Assembly (NCBI GenBank): GCA_006438735.1
Contig: RCZF01000001.1
Location: forward strand, 62,001-126,000
Reading direction: 5' to 3'
From: Sphingomonas koreensis
GTDB taxonomy: Bacteria; Pseudomonadota; Alphaproteobacteria; Sphingomonadales; Sphingomonadaceae
Length of the DNA: 64,000 bases
Both the position numbers and the translations under genes were made by a program. Of this stretch, positions 9,718 through 40,524 are shown piece after piece (within the stretch, counting starts at the first letter, position 1; every line of letters begins with the position of its first letter). A model generated the notes under the pieces. That model did no database searches, was not told the DNA's origin, and saw only the letters and a list, made by a program, of their open reading frames with translations.

Positions 9718-11382
9718 TTACGCCGCCTCGAGCAGCCGCTCCGCTTGCGCGCGCGCTTCGTCGGTGACGGTGGCGCCGGACAGCATCCGGGCGATCTCCT
9801 CGCGGCGATCGGCCTCGTCGAGCGATACCACGCCGGTGCGCGTGACCACGCCGTCGTTGCGCTTGGCGATCAGCAAATGGTGTCGCCCGCGGGCCGCGAC
9901 CTGCGGGCTGTGCGTGACCACCAGCACTTGCGCGGTGTTGGCAAGCCGAGCGAGGCGCTCGCCGATCGCGCTCGCCACCGCACCGCCGACGCCGCGATCG
10001 ATCTCGTCGAAGATCATCGTCGCCGCCGCGCCTTGCTCGGCCAGCGCGACCTTGAGCGCGAGGATGAAGCGCGACAGCTCGCCGCCCGACGCGATCTTGG
10101 CGAGCGGGCCGAACGGCGCGCCGGGATTGGTGGCGATTTCGAACGCCACCCGGTCCTGGCCGGCAGGCGACCATTGGTCTTCGCCCAGCGCGTCGATCAC
10201 CGTGCGGAAACGCGCGGCATCGAGCTTGAGCGGTGCGAGTTCGGCGGCGACGGCGGCGTCGAGCTTAGCTGCGGCGTCCCGGCGCGCGGCCGTCACCGTC
10301 GCGGCGGCGTCGAGATAGGCGGTGCGCATGGCGTCGCGTTGCCGCTCGAGCGCGGCGACGCCGGCGCCGCCGCCGGTGATGCGATCGAGCCGCGCGCTCA
10401 GCTCGGCAGCAAGCGCGGCGAGATCGTCGGGCTGGATGCGGTGCTTGCGCGCGACGGCGCGAAGCTCGAACAGCCGCGTCTCATCGGCTTCGAGCCGGGC
10501 GGGGTCGAATGCGAGAGCGCCCGCCGCCGCATCGATATTGTCCTGTGCCTGAGCCCCTTCGATGATCGCGCGGTCGATCGCCGCCAGCGCCTCGGCAAGC
10601 GCGGGGTGGTCGGCCGCGACGCGTTCGAGCACGCGCGCCGCCTGGCGTAGCCGCGCGAGCCCACCGTCCGATCCGTCGAGCAGATCGGCGATGGTCTGAA
10701 GATCGCCGGCGATCTTCTCGCCGCGTTGCATGGCGGCGCGGCGATCGGCGAGCTCGGCTTCCTCGCCGGGTTCGGGGCCGAGCGCGGCAAGCTCGGCGAC
10801 GGCGTGCTCCAGCCAGTCCTGATCGCGCTGCGCATCGTCCTGCTCGGCGCGCGCGGCGGCGAGCGCCTCTTCGGCGGCGCGCCAATCGCGGTGCGCGGCG
10901 GCCAGCGGCTCCTTGTCGAGCCTGGCGAACGCATCGAGCAAGGCGCGGTGGCCGCGCGGGTTGAGCAGCCCGCGATCGTCATGCTGGCCGTGGATCTCGA
11001 TCAGCGCGCCGGCAAGATCGCGCAGCAAGCCGGCCGACGCCGGCTGGTCGTTGACGAACGCGCGGCTGCCGCCGTCGGCTTTGACGATGCGGCGGATCAT
11101 CAGCGGTTCGCCGGGATCGATGTCGAAGCCGTTGTCGGCGAGCAGCGTTGCAACCGCGCCATCTGTTGCAGGGGCGGCAAAGCTCGCGGTGACGACGGCC
11201 TGCGCGGCACCGCTGCGCACCAGCGCGCTGTCGCCGCGTGCACCGAGCGCGAGCCCGAGCGAATCGAGCAGGATGGATTTGCCCGCGCCGGTCTCACCCG
11301 TCAGCACGCCGAGCCCGGGGCCGAATTCAAGGTCGAGCGCCTCGATCAGCACGACGTCACGGATGGCGAGCGCGTTCAGCAT
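9718..11382 (-). CDS. recN: DNA repair protein RecN
   Basis: An SMC-like ATPase of 554 aa acting in double-strand break repair. The N terminus has the Walker A motif GETGAGKS within the RecN-typical segment GVLTGETGAGKSILLDSLGL. A long coiled-coil middle follows, rich in Ala, Glu and Arg (about 160-370). The C-terminal head has the signature region (KIASGGELSRF) and Walker B (TMIFDEIDRGVGG), followed by the H-loop region VVTHSPQVAA. It lies 39 bp downstream of bamD on the same strand, an order usual in this group of bacteria. Confidence 0.97.
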   Translation of the reverse strand: MLNALAIRDVVLIEALDLEFGPGLGVLTGETGAGKSILLDSLGLALGARGDSALVRSGAAQAVVTASFAAPATDGAVATLLADNGFDIDPGEPLMIRRIVKADGGSRAFVNDQPASAGLLRDLAGALIEIHGQHDDRGLLNPRGHRALLDAFARLDKEPLAAAHRDWRAAEEALAAARAEQDDAQRDQDWLEHAVAELAALGPEPGEEAELADRRAAMQRGEKIAGDLQTIADLLDGSDGGLARLRQAARVLERVAADHPALAEALAAIDRAIIEGAQAQDNIDAAAGALAFDPARLEADETRLFELRAVARKHRIQPDDLAALAAELSARLDRITGGGAGVAALERQRDAMRTAYLDAAATVTAARRDAAAKLDAAVAAELAPLKLDAARFRTVIDALGEDQWSPAGQDRVAFEIATNPGAPFGPLAKIASGGELSRFILALKVALAEQGAAATMIFDEIDRGVGGAVASAIGERLARLANTAQVLVVTHSPQVAARGRHHLLIAKRNDGVVTRTGVVSLDEADRREEIARMLSGATVTDEARAQAERLLEAA

Positions 11383-38961: not shown

Positions 38962-40038
38962 CTACTGGATCAGCGTTCCCACGACGTCGCCGAGTTCGCG
39001 TCTCACCGGATCGAGCGGCGGCCCGTCCTGCGTCTTGCCGAGCCGGACGAGCACGATCCGGTGGGTCATGCTCGGCGACCCAGGGCTGCGGCCCTTGCCG
39101 GCGATGACATATTGGCCGAGGTGGCCGACCATCGATACGACGTTTTGCGGCCCGTGCCCCGGGAACAGCGTCGGCGGCCCGCCGAGACCACCGGGGCGAT
39201 TGAGCCAGACCTGCGCGCCATATTCGGGATTGAGCGGTGAGGGCGCCTTCATGAACGCCAGCCAATCGGGCGCGATCACCTGCGCGCCGCTTTCCGCCTT
39301 GCCGTCGATCAGCAGCGTGCCCATTCGGCCCCAGTCGTCGAGCGTCATGTAAATCAGCGAACCGCCGATCTGCGTGCCCGCGCCGTCGAACTCCAGGAAC
39401 GCGCTGGTGACGCCGGCGGGGCCGAACAACCGGTCGTGCGCGAATCGGCGATAGGCCGCGGCGCGCGTTCGCGGATCGTGGCTGGTGGTCAGCGTGCGGG
39501 TGATGATTTCCGCCAGGATGATCGTCGTCAGCGAGCTATATTCGAATTTGCTCCCGGGCTTGGCTTCGAGCGGCTGGCCGATCGCCCGTGCGGCCATGTC
39601 TTGGGTGCCGCCGACGAACAGCACCTGATTGGTATCGGAATGCTCGATCGGCTCGCCGACCTCGGTATGATCGAGGCCCGAGCGCATTTGCAGCAGCATG
39701 CGCAGCGTAATCGCCGCGCGCGGATCGCCAGGCTTATGCCATTCGGCGACCGGCGCGGGCGCATCAAGCCGGAGCTTACCGTCCTTGACCAGCGCGCCGA
39801 TCAGGAAGCCGGTGATCGTCTTGGCCATCGACCAGCTGATAAAGCGATTGGCGTCCGAAAAGCCGGGCGCATAGCGTTTCGCAGCAACCTGTCCGTCCTC
39901 GATCAGCAGCACCGCACGCGTGCCCTGATCGGCGGCGAACAGTGGCGCGACGAGCGTCGCCGCCGGGACACGCGCCGAACCGCCCGTTACGAGCAACGCG
40001 GCGATCAGCGGCGCAGCGAGAAGGGATTGCATCCGCAT
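38962..40038 (-). CDS. Serine hydrolase of the beta-lactamase / class C PBP family
   Basis: A 358-aa exported hydrolase with an N-terminal signal peptide. The nucleophile motif is SMAK (Ser70, Lys73), with a Tyr region KFEYSS and a late HGPQNVVSMVGHLGQ stretch in place of the KTG triad. It resembles 6-aminohexanoate-dimer hydrolase and esterase EstB-type members rather than true beta-lactamases. The start codon is only 24 nt from the divergent start of the Cys-rich gene, and 22 of these bases form a perfect palindrome; a second in-frame ATG is at 40032. Confidence 0.88.
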   Translation of the reverse strand: MRMQSLLAAPLIAALLVTGGSARVPAATLVAPLFAADQGTRAVLLIEDGQVAAKRYAPGFSDANRFISWSMAKTITGFLIGALVKDGKLRLDAPAPVAEWHKPGDPRAAITLRMLLQMRSGLDHTEVGEPIEHSDTNQVLFVGGTQDMAARAIGQPLEAKPGSKFEYSSLTTIILAEIITRTLTTSHDPRTRAAAYRRFAHDRLFGPAGVTSAFLEFDGAGTQIGGSLIYMTLDDWGRMGTLLIDGKAESGAQVIAPDWLAFMKAPSPLNPEYGAQVWLNRPGGLGGPPTLFPGHGPQNVVSMVGHLGQYVIAGKGRSPGSPSMTHRIVLVRLGKTQDGPPLDPVRRELGDVVGTLIQ

Positions 40039-40060
40039 CGATCCAGCCTAGGCTGGATCG
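40039..40060. promoter_or_regulatory. Perfect 22-bp palindrome between divergent start codons
   Basis: Two 10-base arms, CGATCCAGCC and GGCTGGATCG, flank a TA centre with full dyad symmetry. It lies directly between the ATG of the serine hydrolase (40036-40038, minus) and the ATG at 40063 (plus). There is no space for a promoter between the two genes. It may be an operator, or a hairpin in either message. Confidence 0.7.
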
Positions 40061-40062
40061 CG

Positions 40063-40392
40063 ATGAACGCAAGCCGCCGCAACGCCCTGATCTGGATCCC
40101 GATCGCGATTCTGGCGGTGCTGCTTATTGCCGGTTACGCCTATGCGCAGTCGCAAAAGCCCAAGCTTGAGTTGGGCGTCGGTTATGGCGCACGCGTGGCG
40201 TGCGGCTGCCGCTATATCGAGGGCCGCCCGCTCGACAGTTGCTACAAGGATTTCGAGCCGGGGATGGAGGTCATCCATCTCGCCGACGATCCGCACACCA
40301 AGACCGTGACGGCGTCGGTGCCGTTGCTCGCGAGCCGGTCGGTGCGGTTCGATGCCGAGCTCGGCTGCCAACCCGCGCCGTATAAGGACTGA
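40063..40392 (+). CDS. Small Cys-rich single-span membrane or secreted protein
   Basis: A 109-aa protein of unknown function. A hydrophobic segment (about 9-28, ending AYAQS) is a signal peptide or anchor. The exported part has four cysteines, two in the tight motif ACGCRYIEGRPLDSC and one near the end (LGCQP), so disulfides are likely. The ATG at 40063 is chosen; the frame is open upstream only as the complement of the serine hydrolase gene. No domain is recognised. Divergent pairing with the hydrolase suggests shared control. Confidence 0.72.
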   Translation: MNASRRNALIWIPIAILAVLLIAGYAYAQSQKPKLELGVGYGARVACGCRYIEGRPLDSCYKDFEPGMEVIHLADDPHTKTVTASVPLLASRSVRFDAELGCQPAPYKD

Positions 40393-40405: not shown

Positions 40406-40503
40406 CCTCGGCGAAGGCCGGGGCCCAGTTGGTGAGGTTTCAGTAATTGAGCGAAGCGTTCGGTGATGATCGGCCCGATGCTGGACCCCGGCCTTCGCCG
40501 GGG
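40406..40503. repeat. Intergenic inverted repeat
   Basis: CGGCGAAGGCCGGGGCCCAG at the left and CTGGACCCCGGCCTTCGCCG at the right are near-perfect inverse arms separated by about 50 bases. The element lies in the convergent gap between the Cys-rich gene and mnmA and may end both transcripts. Confidence 0.8.
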
Positions 40504-40524
40504 ATTGGCGCCCTCACTGATTAT

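Follow-up and report, generated by a model that had tools for sequence, protein, structure and literature searches.

A predicted bidirectional promoter, kept between two head-to-head genes of Sphingomonas and relatives, for two putatively leaderless messages

The stretch of Sphingomonas koreensis DNA analysed here (the window, 64,000 nucleotides) contains two divergent genes whose start codons are separated by a gap of 24 nt (40039-40062). On the minus strand, with its ATG at 40038-40036, lies the gene of a 358-aa serine hydrolase (38962-40038), which matches the Pfam Beta-lactamase family (PF00144, E 9e-27) and has a signal-peptide-like N terminus as judged by eye. On the plus strand, a gene starting from the ATG at 40063-40065 (40063-40392) encodes a 109-aa protein that falls in no Pfam family and has a long predicted N-terminal helix, a small strand region and four invariant cysteines. 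The structure model of this small protein is confident (mean pLDDT 89.3), and no fold match to it was found at E 0.001 or better. The pair is flanked on the outside by a PhzF-type isomerase gene and by mnmA. An inverted repeat of the GGCGAAGGCCGGGG / CCCCGGCCTTCGCC type, possibly a dispersed repeat or a terminator, is visible at 40409-40510, in the stretch that separates the 109-aa gene from mnmA.

The 109-aa protein was matched in 35 of 295 genomes of the genus. Among the best 80 of 102 named loci of the small gene, which span Sphingomonas, Stakelama, Hephaestia, Novosphingobium, Croceicoccus and others, the hydrolase is present at every one, and the head-to-head order was observed at the 49 for which the place of the hydrolase is given as well as at the 31 that carry the junction motif described below. 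In three genomes, G045 (L053), G049 (L054) and G196 (L055), ORFs of 473-523 aa bear a domain related to the 109-aa protein at the N-terminal side of a hydrolase of the same family. Such fusions suggest cooperation between the two proteins without proving it.

Nearly the whole gap (22 of its 24 nt) is occupied by an exact dyad at 40039-40060, which belongs to neither strand, reads CGATCCAGCCTAGGCTGGATCG and is fully self-complementary, with arms CGATCCAGCCT and AGGCTGGATCG. The initial annotation had described it correctly, and its 10-base arms around a TA centre amount to 11-base arms with no spacer. This is the only perfect dyad in the window with arms of at least 11 bp, three being present when arms of at least 8 bp are counted; the second longest, GAAGATCGCCGGCGATCTTC, lies at 10698-10717. 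Base composition alone would yield 0.04 perfect dyads with arms of at least 11 bp in a 64-kb window and 2.4 in a genome of 3.6 Mb, so that a dyad of this size somewhere in the genome is unremarkable and its length alone is weak evidence. The claim that the symmetry is very unlikely to be accidental thus fails for genome-wide occurrence and stands for position: the striking part is that the dyad exactly fills a divergent start-to-start gap.

To follow the junction through the clade, we used a main set of 33 genomes, the window's included, in which the small gene stands alone and scores high. These were drawn from the 35 of 295 genomes with matches, leaving out G045, G049 and the second match in G268, which are weak matches in long ORFs (shown to be fusions in G045 and G049). 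Adding six named loci (L127, L128, L133, L135, L144 and L151) gave 39 junctions, and adding four more that offer no motif to align (L139, L147, L150 and L152) gave 43; the 44 loci L154-L197, all devoid of the motif, lie outside both sets. The perfect dyad was found at 2 of the 33 junctions, those of the window's genome and of G044, and is missing from the other 31. What is conserved instead is ANNNTANNNT, which reads TANNNT on each strand with one central TA in common. It stands exactly 8 nt before the plus-strand ATG in 32 of 33 genomes (spacings of 6-10 nt were allowed and 8 was tried first, and only 8 was found), while the minus-strand TANNNT stands 6-7 nt before the hydrolase start codon in all 33 genomes and at all 39 junctions. 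Overlapping -10 elements on opposite strands, the mark of a bidirectional promoter, are hence present in strict form in 32 of 33 genomes, the remaining one (G215) lacking only the last T. In the window, both predicted -10 elements read TAGGCT: that of the 109-aa gene at 40049-40054 on the plus strand, 8 nt before its ATG, and that of the hydrolase at 40045-40050 on the minus strand, 6 nt before its ATG, with T40049 and A40050 common to the two.

Alignment of the 39 junctions showed the T, the A and the outer A to be invariant and the last T to be kept at 95%, whereas in the eight discriminator columns on the plus side the most frequent base reaches merely 41-72%. The lengths between boxes and start codons are kept and the sequence much less so, which is the pattern expected of promoters. 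The cores are of two kinds, AGCCTAGGCT-like and ACGATAGGGT-like, and many genomes have asymmetric ones; in the ACGATAGGGT-like cores the dyad is broken in its middle and TANNNT is nevertheless retained on both strands. A dimer operator would be expected to keep its symmetry, whereas a bidirectional promoter needs the two boxes only. Overall, the arrangement is kept at 39 of 43 orthologous junctions of the clade (37 strict, 2 one-letter variants, 4 lost), and the strict motif occurs at 31 of the best 80 of 102 named loci, all of them within the 36 best. In the window's genome, the pattern with spacings of 6-7 and 6-8 nt was found at three places, and the two other than this junction start no listed ORF of at least 60 aa, nor of at least 50 aa. 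Class-wide use of the arrangement was also considered and rejected, the TA pattern being rarer, not commoner, than an AT-swapped control in 101 genomes of the genus.

The initial annotation held that no promoter fits between the genes and that promoters must lie inside the opposite coding regions, unless the true starts are further in. Both -10 elements do fit in the gap, because the central TA is common to them, and the second half of the statement is borne out by both candidate -35 elements. For the plus-strand gene, a predicted TTGCAT with a 16-bp spacer lies at 40027-40032 (plus strand), within the first hydrolase codons; for the hydrolase, a predicted TTGCGT, also with a 16-bp spacer, lies at 40067-40072 (minus strand), over codons 2-4 of the 109-aa gene. 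The plus -35 is the weaker of the two, with TTG in just 20 of 33 genomes as compared with 33 of 33 for the minus -35. On the plus strand, CAAG at 40070-40073, whose complement CTTG belongs to the minus -35, is invariant, and all 33 genomes have [GA]CAAG across codons 3-4 of the small gene. The codons used are rare ones: all 30 arginines at codon 4 are encoded by AGA or AGG (14 of 250 in the remainder of these genes), all 29 alanines at codon 3 by GCA (35 of 429 in the remainder), and CAAG persists where the residue is threonine or serine instead. Among the sampled genes of this genome, codons 2-6 use AGR for 23 of 257 arginines and GCA for 49 of 351 alanines, and CAAG occupies the same place in 3 of 551 genes. 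Rare codons thus keep the putative minus -35 over codons 3-4 of the small gene. A scan for promoters of the E. coli consensus returned no site at the junction, which is no surprise for TANNNT boxes in DNA rich in GC.

We next considered where the two messages would begin. The predicted start of hydrolase transcription, the seventh base after its -10, is 40038 on the minus strand, the A of the ATG itself; that of the 109-aa gene would fall at 40061-40063 on the plus strand, within 0-2 nt before the ATG or at it, judging from the 8-nt spacing in 32 of 33 genomes. Shine-Dalgarno-like motifs occur at 6 of 39 junctions on the plus strand and 1 of 39 on the minus strand, compared with 201 of 551 first ATGs and 133 of 926 mid-gene ATGs, and are therefore at or below background, as looked for in leaderless genes. 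The other feature looked for in such genes, TANNNT some 12 bp ahead of the start codon, is present on both sides, the 8-nt spacing of the plus-strand gene being at the long end. The genome background comes from a sampled quarter of the genome, with genes called by codon-position GC and the first ATG taken as the start, and is rough. In this sample, the offset at which TANNNT most often precedes first ATGs is 6 nt (7 of 540 as against 1.89 per offset, Poisson 0.003), a modest signal, since one of the seven is the hydrolase studied here and since the peak weakens when GTG starts are added (6 versus 2.42, P 0.04). The 8-nt spacing is not favoured for leaderless genes in this genome (1 of 540 at that offset). 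Zymomonas mobilis belongs to the same order as the window's organism. Its sigmaA consensus is given as TTGNNN/TANNNN, with 6 bp as the commonest discriminator and 119 leaderless TSS-gene pairs, in the accessible part of the source (PMC7566282).

Taken together, these observations make it probable, with good though not full confidence, that a symmetric bidirectional promoter of sigma70 type and of the known 23-bp class has the dyad as its core and serves two leaderless or nearly leaderless mRNAs. The arrangement and its conservation are directly visible; promoter activity, the start sites, leaderless translation and mutual exclusion are what we infer from them. RNA polymerase would bind the junction in either orientation and in each would use the TANNNT -10 of the strand concerned. 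The common TA of AGCCTAGGCT is where the boxes overlap, and in each orientation a -35 would lie 16 bp upstream in the first codons of the opposite gene. The dyad would then cover positions -12 to -1 of both promoters. Transcription to the right would begin no more than about 2 nt from the ATG of the small gene, and to the left at the A of the hydrolase ATG; with both mRNAs leaderless or nearly so, translation would not need a Shine-Dalgarno sequence. Furthermore, the two orientations could not be occupied at once, so that the partners would share one polymerase site. The proposal that both genes are controlled from the gap is thereby supported, whereas GGATCG, put forward in the initial annotation as a weak ribosome site, would be promoter discriminator, given transcription that starts on the ATG or next to it.

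A bidirectional promoter might simply reflect chance symmetry of its -10 element. In the present case, retention at 39 of 43 junctions together with rare codons over the -35 is evidence of selection for two-way use. We lean, by a modest preference, towards the view that a single polymerase site has been selected across the clade as a two-way switch, with one TA, two leaderless messages and each -35 placed in the partner's first codons. The core regulatory DNA of this two-protein hydrolase system would then amount to the 46 bp of 40027-40072, roughly half of which is coding, and the junction would offer a compact natural system in which polymerase competition and leaderless translation can be studied together.

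A promoter alone does not require the six outer symmetric pairs seen in the window, and for these an addition to the promoter reading is worth weighing: a template-switch (quasipalindrome) mutation may have turned a half-symmetric core into a perfect dyad with no function beyond that of the promoter. The dyad of G044 has the same register and other arms, three arm positions differing from those of the window, each together with its partner. In the hydrolase tree, the window's genome and G044 (a partial row) are placed in different groups with good support, each closer to relatives that lack the dyad. Cross-pairing the arms of all 39 junctions gave an expectation of 0.06 perfect dyads, or 0.012 among the 9 with a symmetric core, where two were seen; since the window's genome was picked for its dyad, only G044 counts as independent, and two cases are few. 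Over the 33 junctions, outer pairing is in slight excess (2.52 versus 2.06 of 6 pairs, p 0.012 by a permutation control that ignores relatedness). Homogenisation of arms through template switching is described in the literature, in the portions accessible to us. We consider this addition tentative, with a chance of perhaps one in three, and it is the one that we prefer for the outer symmetry.

An operator for a dimeric regulator, lying over the shared -10 elements and controlling both genes, is unlikely in comparison. The second perfect 22-bp dyad of G044, in the same register elsewhere on the tree, could be read in its favour, and so could a precedent from Bradyrhizobium liaoningense, an Alphaproteobacterium. 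In its csoR-cueA divergon, the nearest experimental parallel that we found, the -10 elements partly overlap, an inverted repeat (the CsoR box) covers the overlap and one message, that of csoR, is mapped as leaderless, according to the accessible part of PMC5057107. As far as the same part of that source goes, the repeat there is the operator of CsoR, which the pair itself encodes, while cueA has a 42-nt leader; the pair studied here contains no regulator, and both of its messages are predicted to be leaderless. The two flanking genes that could be typed (PhzF-like and mnmA) are not regulators either, and the arms of the two dyads differ. No further copy of the dyad was found at up to three mismatches in the 3.6-Mb genome, a search that had been suggested at the outset and in which an operator with a regulon should have shown itself. 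Absence from the orthologous junction of relatives had been named from the start as a result that would speak against an operator, and the dyad is lacking in all but two of the pair-bearing genomes even as the overlapping TANNNT boxes are kept. As a conserved function the operator is accordingly not supported; a lineage-specific operator is possible.

The two other readings are very improbable. The first, in which the dyad folds into a hairpin where one message or both begin, would suit the minus strand, where a message begun upstream of the dyad folds well (71 nt, -30.5 kcal/mol, z -2.63), but the plus-strand fold is ordinary (z -1.41), the predicted starts leave the dyad outside both messages, and its lack of conservation argues against any conserved role of this kind. 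Equally improbable are true start codons further in, with the gap as an ordinary leader: a second in-frame hydrolase ATG lies 6 nt further in, but all 33 genomes have the start codons used here at a constant distance from the shared TA, signal-peptide-like N termini begin there (by eye), and there is no Shine-Dalgarno signal.

The symmetric bidirectional promoter that we favour can be compared with known systems. Warman, Grainger and colleagues reportedly founded the field of bacterial bidirectional promoters with a shared -10 region in a 2021 paper. Two -10 elements with only TA in common give 23 bp from start to start by simple arithmetic, and 23-25 bp is predicted here. In E. coli, bidirectional promoters with overlapping TANNNT on both strands commonly have start-to-start distances of 18, 10 or 23 bp, and the distance predicted for the junction matches the 23-bp class, to judge from the accessible part of PMC12825309; such promoters are also treated in Salmonella (PMC10268837, likewise seen in part). 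Unlike the cases in those parts of the two sources, which concern E. coli and Salmonella RNAs in general, the present junction has proteins as both products and predicted leaderless messages on both sides, and its arrangement is kept across a clade with the -35 elements written into the partner gene. Leaderless genes described elsewhere carry a TANNNT box some 12 bp ahead of the start, in the accessible portion of PMC3160421. Similarly, TANNNT begins 12-13 nt before the start codon of the hydrolase and 14 nt before that of the 109-aa gene, without a Shine-Dalgarno sequence; the difference from the genes in that portion is that here two back-to-back genes use the same TA. We found no report of a bidirectional promoter with both messages leaderless in the literature searched, which was largely without subscription journals and mostly covered at listing level. 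In the same literature, no paper dealing with leaderless messages and transcription start sites in Sphingomonas was found, and those touching on leaderless messages and promoters in Novosphingobium looked unrelated.

The head-to-head order outlasts the motif. The motif is missing from all 44 of the more distant loci L154-L197, where the genes still stand head to head. Among these, six loci of Novosphingobium type (L156, L157, L168, L178, L187 and L194) have another conserved gap sequence, around CCAGCTTTTCTCCAGATCGACCC, that does not contain the TANNNT pair. The shared -10 is likewise gone in the relatives L139, L147, L150 and L152, again with the genes still head to head, and their gap regions hold a short, dispersed-looking repeat made of CTTCGACAAGCTCAGCC-like units, in places in both orientations.
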